Source of the DNA: a virus
Length of the DNA: 21,161 nt
Direction: 5' to 3' (one strand)
Virus record (IMG/VR): IMGVR_UViG_3300025732_000323
Coordinates: 1 to 21,161 of that record
Shown here: one piece after another, positions 5,943 through 18,144 of the stretch
Position numbering within the stretch: the stretch's first letter is position 1
Layout of the letters: the number at the start of each line of letters is the position of its first letter
Translations under genes and position numbers: made by a program
The notes under the pieces: model-generated
Told to the model about the DNA's origin: nothing
The model's input: the letters and a program-made list of their open reading frames with translations, nothing else
The model's database searches: none

Positions 5943-7469
5943 ATGGGAGAATTCTTACACAGATACAACACAGACAATGTTCATTCACGAGCCGTGATAG
6001 TAGGTATGATTAACCTGCTTAACAGTCACGTTTACTTTGAGAATGTTTTGTCCGACACAGTAATCGACACAGTCTACGTTCCCTTCTTCTACAACATGGG
6101 AGGTGATGAACGTTTTTTACAAGATTACTTCCTACACTGGAATGACTGTGTGCATCCAAGATTAGCCGATGGTAATTACGATGTGATACCAAGAGGCATT
6201 GTCACTCTTACTTCCAAGAACATTGATACTGGAAAAATGACTCACCGTTTTGTACGCGGTAATTATGTTAAAGAGGTTGATGGTCAGCTACAAACTTTTA
6301 GCTCATACCTAAACTCCATTCCTATAGCTATGAACTTTGATGTGGAAATTGAAGTTGATACTAACCTGGATGCTTTCAAAGTAGAGCAGGCTATTGTTGA
6401 TGTCTTTTATAAGACCCAAGTCTATTCAGTAACTTACAAAGGCATGAGAGTTCCATGTCAGGTTGGGTTTGCTGAAGACTATGGAGTGGAGAATACTTTT
6501 GAATTTACATACCAGGCAAATGTTAGAACTCTACTAAAGTTTTCATTAACCGTCGAAACCTACTTCCCAGTCTTGGACCCGACAACCGAACGCAGCAACG
6601 CCAACCGCGCGAGTGCGTTTAACACAGTACAACTATCCGAGGAAAGGTACCTGGTTCCACGCTTTACATACGCGGAACCATTAAGCCGAGAGACATACTT
6701 TTCAGGTGGAGTGCTGCCTATTTCATGGACTAACACAGGCCCTATCATGAGGGTTAACCTTTACTATAGATTAGTAGGCAGTTCAGAATGGCGTCTTATA
6801 GCCAAAAACCTTAATAACAATGGCACGTATGATTGGGTTGTTCCATACTTTGACAACAATGGAAACGAGGTCCCAACAGACCCTATCAGTGTAGGCATCG
6901 TAACCTCTAGCGGAAAGTTAGCAAAAGTACGCGCTATCGCCGATGCGCTAGGCTCCATTGAAAAAATTATCATACTAGAAAAAGGCCTATCATACTCCAG
7001 CACTGACATTATTAGCGCCAGCCCTCCAATAGGAGTGTCATTTGTTCCGCCTGTAATACAGGCCAACATTGTTGGTGGTGAAATTGTTGGTTCTACCATT
7101 GTTGACGCTGGAAGCGGATTTGCACCTTCGGCAACAACAGAGATTGAACTCAAGATTGAAGATGCCAACAGTGAAGTTACCTATCGCTTGTTAGACGAAG
7201 TAGTAACATTCACAGGTGATGTGAATCCAAATCTGCAAGCTCCACAAAACTCATACATCACTAACATGGTGCCTACGGTAGTCGAACTCTTAAACTACAC
7301 TCCTCTGTTAGGGCAAACCGTAAGTGGTGCCGGTATTGTTAACGGCTCAGTTATCACAAATGTGGATCAAGTCAATAATCGGGTAGAGATAAATAATACG
7401 ACAACTAACCAGGTAAGCGGTGGAACAATTGTTTTATCCACTAGCACTGGCAAAATTTATATTCAATAG
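5943..7469 (+). CDS. 15: Tail sheath stabiliser-like protein (gp15-like) with Ig-like C-terminal extension
   Basis: 508 aa. Residues 1-215 follow the layout of T4 gp15, the tail terminator that caps the contracted sheath: a short N-terminal helix region, VPFFYNMGGDERF near 46-58, the segment SIPIAMNFDVEIEVD followed by VEQAIVDVF, and a closing TYFPVLDP near 207. After about 255 comes a domain with the Ig-like pattern PISWTN, VNLYYRLVGSSEWRLIA and TYDWVVP, common in Bacteroidota surface and sorted proteins. The last 170 residues are glycine- and valine-rich beta sequence with GSGF and GxGIVNGSVI turns. T4 gp15 is 272 aa, so the extension is the oddity. The gp15 match is from remembered pattern and moderately secure; a general virion structural role is more certain. 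Confidence 0.65.
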   Translation: MGEFLHRYNTDNVHSRAVIVGMINLLNSHVYFENVLSDTVIDTVYVPFFYNMGGDERFLQDYFLHWNDCVHPRLADGNYDVIPRGIVTLTSKNIDTGKMTHRFVRGNYVKEVDGQLQTFSSYLNSIPIAMNFDVEIEVDTNLDAFKVEQAIVDVFYKTQVYSVTYKGMRVPCQVGFAEDYGVENTFEFTYQANVRTLLKFSLTVETYFPVLDPTTERSNANRASAFNTVQLSEERYLVPRFTYAEPLSRETYFSGGVLPISWTNTGPIMRVNLYYRLVGSSEWRLIAKNLNNNGTYDWVVPYFDNNGNEVPTDPISVGIVTSSGKLAKVRAIADALGSIEKIIILEKGLSYSSTDIISASPPIGVSFVPPVIQANIVGGEIVGSTIVDAGSGFAPSATTEIELKIEDANSEVTYRLLDEVVTFTGDVNPNLQAPQNSYITNMVPTVVELLNYTPLLGQTVSGAGIVNGSVITNVDQVNNRVEINNTTTNQVSGGTIVLSTSTGKIYIQ

Positions 7470-7506: not shown

Positions 7507-9096
7507 ATGTCAAATTCAACACTAAAACAACGCATTGAAGGACTAATGTCTTCAACTACATCTGACCAGGCCGTAATGGCGTGCAAAGAGGCGCTTAAGA
7601 AGTACGAGGAGTACAATAACTTTATACTACCTGGGCATTTAGCAGAACAGTTTGAGCTTTCAGTTGCTGAAGCATTGATTAAAGATCTAGAAGCAATTGA
7701 AGAAAACAATGTATCTGACTTCTTAGCAGTAGAAAAGCGAATTGTTGGTATGAACAACATGGGAGTAAAAAAGGCTATTGCAGAATTAAGCGAAAGTGAA
7801 ATGGCAAACAACCCAGCAACTCTCTATGCTTTACAAAGCTTAACAAGCATTCAGCACCTACCTGAGTGGTCTATCGTAAATCGAGTAATAGAGTCTCTTA
7901 AATCATTTGAGTGGAACCCATTAGTAAAGGAACATTTGAATGTATTGAAAGCCAACGCTGCTAAATACGCAGAAGACATTAAAATCTACACTGCGGTTCA
8001 AGAGGCTAAAGCTTCAAAATCAAGCTTCCTAATTGAAAGTGTTGAAAACGACATCAATTCATACCTAAACCATAGAACCTCTACAAACCGTGCAAAACTT
8101 CTTGAGTCTTTAGGGAAATACAACTTTGACCAGGGAGTTCGCAAACTTTACAACATCGTTTCTGAAAGCGAAACTACATTCCAACTTAAAAGCATTACAA
8201 ACGATGCTCGTGTAAGTAAGTTATACTCTCCAGTTCTTATCAACGAGGATAGCGAAGTATTCTCTGTCTTTGGAAAAGGCTATGTAAAAAGTGGAGATAA
8301 CGTAAGAGCACTAACTGAAGAGGAAAGCAAAATGCTTCCAGACTACTTTCACTGGATGTCTTCTTTTCTAGCTCAGCCAAACGTGGAAGTTACTGAAGGC
8401 CGTGTTAAAATCTTTTCACATGACAAAAAGGTAGAAATTGTAGAAGAAAATGACAGCGTTAATGTTCACATCAACGGAAAGGTGGTTTCTATTGAAGAGT
8501 TTCACAAAGTGTATCTTAACAGTGGAATCTTCCGTATGAATGAGAAAGAAATCATCAATGCAGTTTCCAGAATCCTTGAAAAATGGAATCTAATCTTTGA
8601 ACTTGACTTTGCTAAATCAATCTTTCCAAAAAGCACACCTAACCGTCGAGTAGATATCTTCAAAATCAACGAGAAAATTCACGTTAACCGTGTTGATACT
8701 TTAATGAATGAAAATATCTTCCACGAAGACTGCAACGCAGTACAGGCAAAAAATCTTGTACTAGAATTTGCACAGTATGACTTATCAAATGCTTTCTCAA
8801 GTATGTTATCTGAAAAAGAGGCTGAGTTGAAAAAACTAGATGAAAGCAAAAAACAACTTCTTGATACCATTACATACCTAGAAGAAAGACGCGCTCTTAT
8901 CGAAGGCATCGATGATGAAGATGTTAAAGAGTCTGATGAGGTAAAAGAAGTATTGGCAATGATAGAAAGCGAAATTGACGCAGTAAAATCTGTCTACTAC
9001 GAAATACACAATCGTCAAAAGGAACTGACCACAGTTCAAGAAGGTTTGGGTGCAAGCGTCGGCGACGAAGTTGAGCACTTAAAAAAAAAGCAGTAG
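7507..9096 (+). CDS. Unknown 529-aa protein, zero-frame part of a probable frameshift fusion
   Basis: The start is taken at ATG 7507, giving MSNSTLKQRIEGL. The frame is open further upstream, but that part overlaps the previous gene and contains the promoter-like TATATA. I do not recognise the family. The N-terminal half is helical, the middle (about 250-370) is mixed alpha/beta, and residues about 435-515 are charged heptad-like helices (KEAELKKLDESKKQLL) likely to form a coiled coil. The last residues, VGDEVEHLKKKQ, stop abruptly at an A9G tract, where the -1 frame continues without a stop for 214 codons. It lies between virion genes and the late sigma gene, so a structural or internal head role is possible. 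Function unknown. Confidence 0.85.
   Translation: MSNSTLKQRIEGLMSSTTSDQAVMACKEALKKYEEYNNFILPGHLAEQFELSVAEALIKDLEAIEENNVSDFLAVEKRIVGMNNMGVKKAIAELSESEMANNPATLYALQSLTSIQHLPEWSIVNRVIESLKSFEWNPLVKEHLNVLKANAAKYAEDIKIYTAVQEAKASKSSFLIESVENDINSYLNHRTSTNRAKLLESLGKYNFDQGVRKLYNIVSESETTFQLKSITNDARVSKLYSPVLINEDSEVFSVFGKGYVKSGDNVRALTEEESKMLPDYFHWMSSFLAQPNVEVTEGRVKIFSHDKKVEIVEENDSVNVHINGKVVSIEEFHKVYLNSGIFRMNEKEIINAVSRILEKWNLIFELDFAKSIFPKSTPNRRVDIFKINEKIHVNRVDTLMNENIFHEDCNAVQAKNLVLEFAQYDLSNAFSSMLSEKEAELKKLDESKKQLLDTITYLEERRALIEGIDDEDVKESDEVKEVLAMIESEIDAVKSVYYEIHNRQKELTTVQEGLGASVGDEVEHLKKKQ
9079..9096 (+). promoter_or_regulatory. Putative -1 frameshift (slippery) site A9G with following stop codon
   Basis: The zero frame reads TTA AAA AAA AAG CAG TAG. 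It contains the efficient bacterial -1 slippery heptamer A AAA AAG at 9084-9090, with a stop two codons later. The -1 frame is open from 9075 and begins coding exactly here. No strong stem-loop or pseudoknot is obvious just downstream; only a weak 3-bp stem with a possible G-T extension (9102-9119). Polymerase slippage on the nine A residues would give the same product. A missing A in the assembly (A10 instead of A9) would also join the frames. Confidence 0.7.
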
Positions 9097-9734
9097 TTAT
9101 AGGAGCGAACCAAGCCTCTAAAACTCTAACAATCAAAGACGAAGACGGAAAGACCCACGAGGTTGATCCCACACAAATAAAAGTCACTAAGAAGGCCTCT
9201 GAAGCACGACCTGGCAATGACCTTGAGATAAACACCCAAGGTGATGGCGCAACAGTCGGGATTCGTGAGGCCAATGACTTTGTTAAGGGAAAGGTTTTAG
9301 GCTCGTACAATGGACCTGAGGCTGGAGATGAAGTCTTGGTAAAAGCTACCGACTACACTACTAAAGGCGATAACGATGAAGTTGAAATCATGGTGGGTGG
9401 CTCAGAAAAAGCAACAATCCTAAAAAAGTTTTTAACTAACGTTCTGGTTGAAGGAAGAGAACTAAATGAATACGGTGTATATAATTCTGAAAACGACGTT
9501 AATAACAATGTAAAAACAGGAGAAAACGAGCCTAGCGACGAACAGGGCTTTATCATGAAACTTTCCGATAGCGTAAAGCACATAATTGGAACGCTTGAAG
9601 AGGTAAAAACTACTGTTCGCGAAGAATCCAAGGTATCATTTGACTCGATTGATGTGGCAATTGCTGAACTTTCCAGTTATGTGAAATCCTTAGAGGATGA
9701 AGGTGACATTATAGCCTCCGCAACACCAAACTAA
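9090..9734 (+). CDS. -1 frame extension (214 codons) of the preceding protein
   Basis: This frame has no ATG near its beginning: it is open from 9075, the first possible start is a TTG at 9336, and convincing coding sequence begins at the A-tract. It is therefore best read as the second part of a 742-aa fusion (7507-9090 joined to 9090-9734). Read across the junction, VGDEV from the zero frame continues as AVVIGANQASKTLTIKDEDG and EVDPTQI, like one small SH3/KOW-type beta barrel. The domain would be cut in half without the shift. A second beta-rich block (KVLGSYNGPEAGDEVLVKA) and an acidic helical tail follow. The gp55-like gene starts 3 nt after the stop. No family recognised; function unknown. 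Confidence 0.78.
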   Translation, partial: AVVIGANQASKTLTIKDEDGKTHEVDPTQIKVTKKASEARPGNDLEINTQGDGATVGIREANDFVKGKVLGSYNGPEAGDEVLVKATDYTTKGDNDEVEIMVGGSEKATILKKFLTNVLVEGRELNEYGVYNSENDVNNNVKTGENEPSDEQGFIMKLSDSVKHIIGTLEEVKTTVREESKVSFDSIDVAIAELSSYVKSLEDEGDIIASATPN

Positions 9735-9737
9735 AAC

Positions 9738-10082
9738 ATGGCAAATTACGTAGACCCTGAAGAGTTTAAGAAAGAAATTTTACTCTCAAAAGAAAGAGAT
9801 GAACTTACCCCCAAGGCAGTTGATATGCTGATGCTGATGGCAAAAGAATCGTCTAAGAAGCTTACATACAAAGATGAGGAAGACCGCAAAGACTGCATAG
9901 CTTTTGCGATGATGGATGTTATCAAGTATTGGCGTAGCTACAACCCAGAAAAATCAAAGTATCCTTTTGCTTATTATACACAAATCATTAAACATGGTTT
10001 TGCAAAAGGCTGGAGAAAATTACATCCACTTAGCGCAACAAAAAAAGTTTCACTGAGCAACGAGAACTTTTATAGCTTCTAG
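9738..10082 (+). CDS. 55: Late transcription sigma factor, gp55-like
   Basis: 114 aa. Residues about 40-95 match the core of T4 gp55: a basic/aromatic lead (KKLTYKDEEDRKD), a helix with AMMDVIKYWRSYNPEKSKYPFAYYTQ and then IKHGFAKGWRKLHP, equivalent to sigma region 2. This part of gp55 binds the RNA polymerase beta' coiled coil and recognises the TATAAATA late promoter. The C-terminus (SLSNENFYSF) has aromatic residues like the clamp-binding tail of T4 gp55 (SLDFLYE). The protein is much shorter than the 185 aa of T4 gp55. The ATG lies 3 nt after the previous stop and has no Shine-Dalgarno. The repeated TATATA elements in the window are its likely targets. Confidence 0.8.
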   Translation: MANYVDPEEFKKEILLSKERDELTPKAVDMLMLMAKESSKKLTYKDEEDRKDCIAFAMMDVIKYWRSYNPEKSKYPFAYYTQIIKHGFAKGWRKLHPLSATKKVSLSNENFYSF

Positions 10083-13039: not shown

Positions 13040-13624
13040 ATGATAGCTATTGATAGCAACCCTCTTGAAGGAAAAGTAGGCTTTCTAACATCACCTCTTA
13101 TTATAGAAGATGTTTTAGACAAAGAGGAAATAACTAGCATAGAAAAAATCATTGATGCTCTGCACTCATCAGAAGCCACTGTGAACTACGGTGAAAAGGA
13201 TGATAACGTCGCGTCCTTTAAACTTGCCTGGATTCCTTTCAATGATAATACCGCTTGGTTGTACGGTAGATTGTACGACATAGTACATATGTACAACGAC
13301 GAGTCTTTTGAAATGGAGCCGCTTGATATGGTGGAGCGCATTATGTACTGTGAATATGGAGAAGGCGACTTTCACAGTTGGCATCTTGACATAGCCGATG
13401 TTCCTCCTTTTCTGGGAAGAAAGCTAACAGTCACAGTTCAACTAAGCTCCAGCGACGACTATCGAGGCGGAAACCTAACGTATATGTTGGACGGCTATTC
13501 AGTTCCAAGATCACAGGGTACTTTCATTATTCATCCCTCATACTTGCTACACAGCACAGAACCAGTAGTTTCCGGAACCAAAAAGACTCTTACATATTGG
13601 TTAGGTGGAACCAAATTCCGCTAG
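13040..13624 (+). CDS. 2-oxoglutarate/Fe(II)-dependent oxygenase
   Basis: 194 aa, double-stranded beta-helix oxygenase of the prolyl-4-hydroxylase/PKHD type, common in marine T4-like phages. Fe(II) ligands are H115 and D117 (SWHLD) and H171 (LLHSTEPV). K181, ten residues after the distal His, takes the place where these enzymes usually have an Arg that binds 2-oxoglutarate. CEYGEGDFHSWHLD and the RGGNLTYML strand fit the fold. The substrate cannot be told; protein side-chain or nucleobase hydroxylation are both possible. It sits 18 nt after the portal gene and directly before the nucleotidyltransferase promoter. Its leader (GTAAACTTAAAAAT) is A-rich without Shine-Dalgarno. Confidence 0.88.
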   Translation: MIAIDSNPLEGKVGFLTSPLIIEDVLDKEEITSIEKIIDALHSSEATVNYGEKDDNVASFKLAWIPFNDNTAWLYGRLYDIVHMYNDESFEMEPLDMVERIMYCEYGEGDFHSWHLDIADVPPFLGRKLTVTVQLSSSDDYRGGNLTYMLDGYSVPRSQGTFIIHPSYLLHSTEPVVSGTKKTLTYWLGGTKFR

Positions 13625-13636
13625 GTGTATATAAAC
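13625..13636 (+). promoter_or_regulatory. TATATA promoter element upstream of the nucleotidyltransferase gene
   Basis: GTGTATATAAAC, identical over 12 nt to the element before gene 41, directly follows the oxygenase stop. TATATA at 13628-13633 is 21 nt before ATG 13649. Its GTG can be misread as a start codon of the next gene. Confidence 0.65.
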
Positions 13637-13648
13637 ACTAAAAATCTT

Positions 13649-14110
13649 ATGAAAGTTGGTATTACCTGCAGTACTTTTGATTTGCTGCACACAGGTCATA
13701 TCTTAATGTTGGAAGAGTGCAAGCAGCATTGCGATTACCTTATCTGCGCTCTTCAAGTAGACCCAACACTAGATAGGCCCGAAAAAAACAAACCCATACA
13801 ATCTGTAGTTGAAAGATACACTCAGTTAAAGGCTGTAAAGTACGTTGATGAGATCATACCGTATGTTACAGAGATTGAACTAGAGGAAATCTTTAAGTCT
13901 TATCCAATTAATGCACGTATTATTGGAAGCGATTACATGGGAAGAGACTTTACTGCAAAGGAAATATGCAGAGACCGCGGCATCGAAATCATTTACAATA
14001 AACGTGACCATGATTACTCTAGTACAGAGTTGAGAAAAAGAGTCTGGAGGGTCGAAACAAGTAAGATCGAGTACTATAAAAAGCTTAATGCAGAGGAGCC
14101 CCAAAAGTAA
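13649..14110 (+). CDS. Cytidylyltransferase-type nucleotidyltransferase
   Basis: 153 aa from ATG 13649. The frame opens at a GTG at 13625, but that codon belongs to the promoter element. The enzyme has the nucleotidyltransferase fold of the glycerol-3-phosphate cytidylyltransferase / RfaE C-terminal group: CSTFDLLHTGHILML near the N-terminus carries the HxGH nucleotide-binding motif, followed by ERYTQLKAVKYVDEIIPY, and YSSTELRKRV near the end carries the (I/Y)SST motif that closes the active site. Such enzymes join CMP or AMP to a phosphorylated alcohol or sugar. The target is unknown; surface polysaccharide, nucleotide-sugar or cofactor metabolism are possible. The length is close to the about 130-160 aa usual for single-domain members. 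Confidence 0.85.
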   Translation: MKVGITCSTFDLLHTGHILMLEECKQHCDYLICALQVDPTLDRPEKNKPIQSVVERYTQLKAVKYVDEIIPYVTEIELEEIFKSYPINARIIGSDYMGRDFTAKEICRDRGIEIIYNKRDHDYSSTELRKRVWRVETSKIEYYKKLNAEEPQK

Positions 14111-17161: not shown

Positions 17162-17575
17162 ATGAGCGACTTATTTGAATTCATTAACGGAATGGTTTCT
17201 AAGCCAGAAGAGTTTAAGAAAACCAAGATGCATGAGAGAGCAAAACATTTTTTCATGGTAAATAGGCTATGCAGCATTGCTTTTCCAGTGCAGGCATCCT
17301 ACTTTAATCACATAAAGATAAATCCTGCGCAAGCAGTTACTTTTTGGCAAACACTGCTATCTGCAAAGTATAACCGTACCCCAAATTGGATGTATGTAAA
17401 GACTGCAAAGGCTAAAGCTGAAAAGAAAGCTGTTCAACCTGTGAGCGATGAAGTAATGCGCTCTTACTGCGAAACATACAAAATATCAAGAAGAGACTTA
17501 GATACTGCAATTCTGATGCTAGGACAAAGCATGGAAAAAGAGCTAAAAGATTTTGAACAACTAACACAACAATAA
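17162..17575 (+). CDS. 62: Candidate clamp loader small subunit, gp62-like
   Basis: 137 aa, basic and helical. Its layout recalls the short gp62 of T4-like cyanophages: MVNRLCSIAFPVQASYFNHIKINP near 32-55, a basic segment NRTPNWMYVKTAKAK near 71-85, then VMRSYCETYKISRRDLDTAILML near 98-120. The spacing of VNR, the basic/aromatic P-x-W segment and the Y-x-x-S helix is similar, but identity is low and this is from memory. gp62 bridges gp44 subunits in the loader; T4 gp62 is 187 aa. Here the gene is separated from 44 by four genes. It overlaps the ClpP-like gene start by one base (TAATG). If not gp62, it is unknown. Confidence 0.5.
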   Translation: MSDLFEFINGMVSKPEEFKKTKMHERAKHFFMVNRLCSIAFPVQASYFNHIKINPAQAVTFWQTLLSAKYNRTPNWMYVKTAKAKAEKKAVQPVSDEVMRSYCETYKISRRDLDTAILMLGQSMEKELKDFEQLTQQ

Positions 17576-18144
17576 TGGCAACAACATTTTCAATACCCGA
17601 ACCAAAAGATAGAAACTTGTATCTTGCTTCCCAGGTGAATCAGGAAAGCATGAATAAATTGTCTAAAGAAATCATCGAGATCAACGAGTCTGACGATTAC
17701 CTAAAGAAGCTTTACGCTGTTCATGACATAGTGTATACACCGAAGCCAATTAAAATCTACATTGATTCGTATGGTGGTGCGGTTTACCAATGCTTTGGTT
17801 TGATTGGTGTTATGGAAAAAAGTCAAACACCAGTGCATACATACGTTACCGGCTGTGCAATGAGCTGTGGATTTATCATTCTTATTCATGGGCATAAGAG
17901 ATTTGGTTATCAGCACGCAACTCCTCTGTACCACCAAGTATCTACAGGGTTTTGGGGAAAAGTCGCAGACATGGAAGATGACCTTAAAGAGGCCAAAAGG
18001 CTACAGAAAAAAATTGAGGACATGACAATCTCAAAGACCAAGATTACGCCATCCAAATTAGAAAAGGTGTATAAGCGCAAGACTGATTGGTTTATGTCAG
18101 CTGATGAGGCTCTTAAACTTGGCGTCATTGATGAGATAGTCTAA
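17575..18144 (+). CDS. ClpP-like serine protease (S14 family)
   Basis: 189 aa with the ClpP/crotonase-type fold. The catalytic triad is complete: S97 in GCAMSCGF, H120 in PLYHQ, and D171 in KTDWFMSADEA. IYIDSYGGAVYQCFGLIGVM (61-80) is the characteristic oxyanion and core region, and the tail LGVIDEIV is typical. No partner Clp ATPase is visible in the window. Phage S14 proteases often process capsid or scaffold proteins; since no gp21-type protease gene follows the portal here, this enzyme may do prohead maturation, or it may alter host proteolysis. No signal peptide. The start is fixed by the TAATG junction with the preceding gene; the gene ends 39 nt before the next promoter. Confidence 0.88.
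   Translation: MATTFSIPEPKDRNLYLASQVNQESMNKLSKEIIEINESDDYLKKLYAVHDIVYTPKPIKIYIDSYGGAVYQCFGLIGVMEKSQTPVHTYVTGCAMSCGFIILIHGHKRFGYQHATPLYHQVSTGFWGKVADMEDDLKEAKRLQKKIEDMTISKTKITPSKLEKVYKRKTDWFMSADEALKLGVIDEIV

Follow-up and report, generated by a model that had tools for sequence, protein, structure and literature searches.

In the window, as we call the whole 21,161-nucleotide stretch of viral DNA that was analysed, one gene among T4-type genes is split by a -1 frame break at an A9G tract. We conclude that this break reflects programmed recoding of either kind (probability about 95%) and that the phage almost certainly produces one protein in two lengths by design, both of which would accumulate. 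The initial annotation had proposed a programmed -1 fusion in a T4-type phage gene, inside a single small region resembling a beta-barrel, and our results support it. Transcriptional slipping is the most likely route and RNA polymerase slippage on A9/A10 probably accounts for the shift, in preference to -1 slippage of the ribosome. RNA polymerase would slip at the A9/A10 run, so that a fraction of the mRNAs carry one A more (or two fewer). Without slippage the mRNA would yield the 529-aa short form, ending almost directly past the tract; slipped mRNA would yield the 742-aa long form, in which the barrel is completed and followed by a second barrel and a helical C-terminus.

The zero frame extends from the ATG at 7507 to a TAG at 9094-9096 (529 codons), with the letters TTA AAA AAA AAG CAG TAG at 9079-9096. 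Open from 9075, the -1 frame reaches a TAA at 9732-9734 and contributes 214 codons, giving a joined product of 528 + 214 = 742 aa. Our own reading thus returns the coordinates given initially. It also agrees that the -1 frame has no plausible start for over 200 nt: the earliest ATG, GTG or TTG are TTG 9336 and then ATG 9390, more than 240 nt beyond the junction, so the frame is without a usable start near the junction. The features of the locus are as follows.

5943..7469, plus strand: gp15-like tail sheath stabiliser with a C-terminal extension (PF16724, E 2.8e-5, 23.8 bits against a cut-off of 25); a conserved neighbour
7507..9096, plus strand: short-form N part, zero-frame ORF of 529 aa (ORF reading, AlphaFold2 model, kept in relatives)
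9058..9195 (approximate limits), plus strand: putative SH3/KOW-like barrel across the junction, VGDEVEHLKKK followed after the slip by AVVIGANQASKTLTIKDEDGKTHEVDPTQIKV (sequence, strands of the C model)
9081..9089, plus strand: A9 slip tract, A9 or A10 without exception in 14 distinct phages
9084..9090, plus strand: in-phase A_AAA_AAG heptamer with G at 9090, without variation in the family
9094..9096, plus strand: TAG stop of the zero frame, the second codon past AAG (in relatives the stop is at codon 0, 1 or 2, counted from 0)
9090..9734, plus strand: -1 extension, 214 codons and TAA, with the remainder of barrel 1, barrel 2 and a helical pair at the C-terminus
9738..10082, plus strand: gp55-like late sigma factor (phrog_234, E 4.7e-12), starting 3 nt past the long-form stop

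Two other ways of expressing the second half were considered and rejected. Independent translation of the -1 frame is at odds with the missing start and with the conservation of the residues just after the tract. Reading TAG as Gln, as in Lak phages, does not join the halves, since the zero frame still reaches a TAA within about a dozen codons.

Relatives were gathered from viral contigs: a search with the N part gave 14 loci, profile searches added more, and one (L111) was added through a DNA pattern built on the junction. After merging identical or near-identical assemblies, 14 distinct phages remain (the window and 13 others). All 14 carry the (A9-10)G tract, show the -1 relation and end the zero frame within three codons; the homologue alignment suggested as a check in the initial annotation finds slip site and frame break retained in all of these phages. 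The junction codons are TTA, CTA or GAA followed by AAA AAA AAG, and the -1 extension measures about 160-216 residues. Compared with the window, the N parts show 43-55% identity and the extensions 39-60%, which suggests that both halves are under similar constraint. Judged by sequence comparison, the recurrence of tract, frame relation and early stop in 13 further relatives is far beyond chance. Annotated phage records contain distant relatives only, none with the frameshift, and a search of bacterial genomes gave no relative of the gene. In L021, L051, L052 and L053 barrel 2 is missing from the extension (162-166 against 206-216 residues), and an A9 run sits where it was lost. The 238 kb relative has a second A9G tract within its -1 extension (L014, 5850-5858).

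Selection appears to have kept the tract and also the early termination of the short product, as far as can be judged from a codon alignment of 12 phages. Of 60 invariant two-fold columns in the N part, only 5 keep one wobble base throughout; the tract accounts for three of these five. Likewise, 3 of 13 invariant Lys columns use one codon only, all three in the tract. A third-base A in 12/12 phages is seen in 5 of 553 columns: three consecutive ones at the tract and two elsewhere. The consecutive columns include the Leu/Glu codon preceding KKK, which lies outside the A_AAA_AAG heptamer. Synonymous sites around the tract are saturated while the tract itself is invariant; the phages in these counts share ancestry, so that the counts are not independent trials. 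Zero-frame stops make up about 7% of codons in the extension (own count), yet the early stop always falls within three codons, even though on the tree it has moved to another position at least three times.

Avoidance of similar runs in other genes gives an indication of the mechanism. Runs were counted over 168,654 codons of nine family contigs and compared with synonymous shuffles, the short-form frame of the studied gene being excluded. Within genes, A9+ runs are found 2 times against 64 expected (0.03 of expectation) and A8 runs 35 times against 94; other A9+ runs are mostly in leaders or at gene ends. For A8+ the ratio is 0.21-0.27 of expectation and similar in all three reading phases, whereas the in-phase A_AAA_AAG in an A6 run is not avoided (38 against about 43 expected, 0.87-0.89). 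T runs in other genes are likewise avoided, and the pattern recurs in two Tenacibaculum phages: in PTm1 and pT24 (L063-L087) A7+ and T7+ are strongly avoided within genes, with 2 A8 observed against 53 expected. Avoidance thus follows run length instead of phase, which fits slippage of a polymerase or of DNA and not a ribosomal heptamer. Homopolymer avoidance can also arise from slippage in DNA replication.

The strongest competitor is programmed -1 ribosomal frameshifting, in which the tRNA-Lys of the P and A sites moves from A AAA AAG back to AAA AAA, here with no strong conserved stimulator. We regard it as possible but as the less probable route. In its favour, and against polymerase slippage, is the in-phase A_AAA_AAG itself, which works efficiently in E. 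coli, is invariant in the family and is identical to the heptamer of E. coli dnaX (PMC3711429). The in-phase A_AAA_AAA is moreover found in other genes at 0.49 of expectation against 0.82-0.85 for other A7 runs; ribosomal slipping in the host is therefore possible, and the 238 kb family phage encodes two tRNA-Lys(UUU). Also counting against the polymerase is that three family members have an A9 within the extension itself. Nonetheless, conservation includes the wobble A ahead of the heptamer, and no conserved RNA structure follows. RNAalifold gives no consensus pairs downstream of the tract, and single-sequence RNA z-scores scatter near zero for the majority of phages, with low values in a few. 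By eye, the upstream alignment shows no SD-like element at conserved spacing, although the hosts may not use SD pairing. Of the hallmarks of dnaX-type frameshifting, the in-phase X_XXY_YYZ heptamer is present and a downstream stimulatory structure is absent from the comparison, and two sequence hallmarks of poly-A slippage sites, a homopolymer of about nine or more A/T at the junction and conservation of tract and frame relation with coding on both sides, are found. A scan for Bacteroidota promoter motifs was uninformative. The initial annotation had placed the heptamer first and the polymerase second; both routes do fit, but tract conservation beyond the heptamer, the failure to find conserved structure or SD-like spacing and the avoidance of runs by length lean towards the reverse order.

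Polymerase slippage of this kind is established elsewhere. It is proven on nine A/T in Thermus dnaX (PMC5009743, PMC3711429) and on A11 in Citrobacter tssM1, where two length forms are needed (PMC4256274). The gene studied here shares with dnaX of Thermus thermophilus, and with the two-ORF versions in Chlorobi, a tract of nine or ten A/T, N-terminally identical products and independence from RNA structure (PMC5009743, PMC3711429). It is, however, another gene, and the long form is the unshifted product in Thermus and the shifted one in the phage. With Citrobacter rodentium tssM1 it shares poly-A, an early zero-frame stop (after 28 nt there) and a long form made from slipped mRNA (PMC4256274). 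Yet tssM1 is a bacterial secretion gene with a longer tract, where slippage rescues an interrupted gene in one species, whereas in the phages the arrangement is kept throughout a deep clade. Among ribosomal systems, lambda gpG/gpGT is likewise a phage gene with a -1 shift and N-terminally identical short and long forms (PMC5009743), but no homology was found, the protein studied here is much larger and its neighbours differ. T4-like tail chaperones are reportedly separate short and long genes, according to a secondary account (Vladimirov 2022, cited in PMC10885494). E. coli dnaX shares the in-phase A_AAA_AAG; its shift, however, yields the short form, and no conserved counterpart of its stimulators was found in the phage gene. 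These stimulators are an SD-like element and a stem-loop.

More distant relatives encode the same N part without any break. In Lak, which are Prevotella phages, and in metagenomic phages of 462-642 kb they adjoin the same gp15-like gene, and they lie mostly beside that gene among LR756500, Lak and the metagenomic phages of 634-735 kb; in LR756501 (735 kb genome) the relative is located elsewhere. Short-only versions are found in phages of 634-735 kb: LR756502, LR756504 and LR745206 have 428-441 codons and a TAA after the helical hairpin, with no extension. LR756500 has one unbroken 631-codon frame comprising the N part and the second barrel, and Lak a single frame of 1148-1222 codons (1148-1222 aa), which is longer with TAG as Gln. 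As read from these genomes, short-only, long-only and slip-made pairs all occur, and since the single-frame versions exist, each form makes sense alone. The Lak homologue (L017, 3044-8104; L062, 8603-13408) contains long acidic D/E-rich repeats and runs past in-frame TAG codons, which are sense in Lak. In LR756500 a TnpB-like ORF, identified by eye, lies between the gp15-like gene and the studied gene (L016, 2323-3576).

Predicted structures were obtained for the N and C halves folded separately. AlphaFold2 gives the short form a helical N-terminal half, a beta-rich middle and a long helical hairpin at residues 436-508 (pLDDT 80, pTM 0.42). The C model has strands at residues 6-12, 17-22 and 27-30, consistent with a barrel that may be SH3/KOW-like, a label for which the Pfam match is weak. 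Pfam and PHROG provide no useful match for function and no recognisable homology to tail chaperone families, and a PDB fold search with the short-form model gave nothing significant. Its fold matches in BFVD are uncharacterised phage proteins and one protein labelled DNA ligase. The latter, A0A1B4XWW4 of Tenacibaculum phage pT24 (936 aa, labelled DNA ligase 1), may carry a wrong label or be a fusion. The fold match in PTm1 is probably BBI90634.1 (ORF-242, 442 aa); its length points to it, as does a match to the profile that is very weak (E 0.44). The profile search of PTm1 and pT24 produced no match.

Only the neighbours suggest a structural or assembly role. The gene stands between the gp15-like and gp55-like genes and not just ahead of the tape measure gene, and homologues of gp4, gp2 and the portal (gp20) follow downstream of the gp55-like gene. 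The earlier label of structural-region protein holds for the surroundings, where late and structural genes of T4 type are found, but neither family searches nor the PDB fold search yielded a match that would give the protein a function. Elsewhere in the window, 13040-13624, 13625-14110 and 17575-18144 look by eye like a 2-oxoglutarate oxygenase, a cytidylyltransferase and a ClpP-like protease, among structural and replication genes.

The position of the late sigma gene raises another explanation, namely that the shift mainly feeds ribosomes to it, late transcription then being set by how often the shift occurs. The frameshift phages have their long-form stop about 0-10 nt ahead of the gp55-like ATG, whereas the short-form stop in the window is about 640 nt upstream of it; shifted translation would therefore bring ribosomes to the sigma gene. 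Still, we consider this improbable as the main purpose: genes in phage operons are ordinarily packed tightly, protein conservation of the extension is about equal to that of the N part, and the long single-frame version of LR756500 has a wider gap. The closeness of stop and start (about 10 nt; 9734-9738 in the window, and in the frameshift relatives) is in itself a possible case of translational coupling.

Very unlikely is phase variation, by which the DNA tract would vary in length between particles and toggle the long form. Replication can leave A9 tracts unstable (PMC3711429), but the frame relation is identical in all assembled copies and no in-frame version of the tract was found among those of the frameshift family. 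The explanation held open initially, a lost A in the assembly (or a decayed gene), is refuted: single-base homopolymer errors are common, though nothing is specific to this tract, the homologues in all 14 phages share the break, for 5 of them separate metagenomes yielded two or three assemblies with unchanged run length, the extension is conserved, and in L021, L022 and L051-L053, where GAA replaces TTA and the run becomes A10, the shift needed is still -1, so that a missing base cannot explain the break.

Programmed recoding, with polymerase slippage as the favoured route, thus concerns a new gene family and a known kind of recoding; a literature search did not find recoding described in this family. 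The hosts of the frameshift phages are likely Bacteroidota, given that the named relatives infect Prevotella, Tenacibaculum and (through the gp15-like gene only) Flavobacterium. Tentatively, we propose that in a T4-related clade, probably of Bacteroidota, RNA polymerase slippage may set the short:long ratio of a protein that relatives make as short-only or long-only, and that this ratio may matter for particle assembly or for the adjacent late sigma factor. Because relatives encode either form alone, the need for each can be tested by swapping. Automatic annotation splits the gene in these phages and can miss an extension that is conserved and exceeds 160 residues. The family would represent recoding in a gene other than those for tail chaperones and capsid proteins, and would do so in a T4-related lineage; the tail chaperones of that lineage, as far as the secondary account goes, reportedly do not frameshift.
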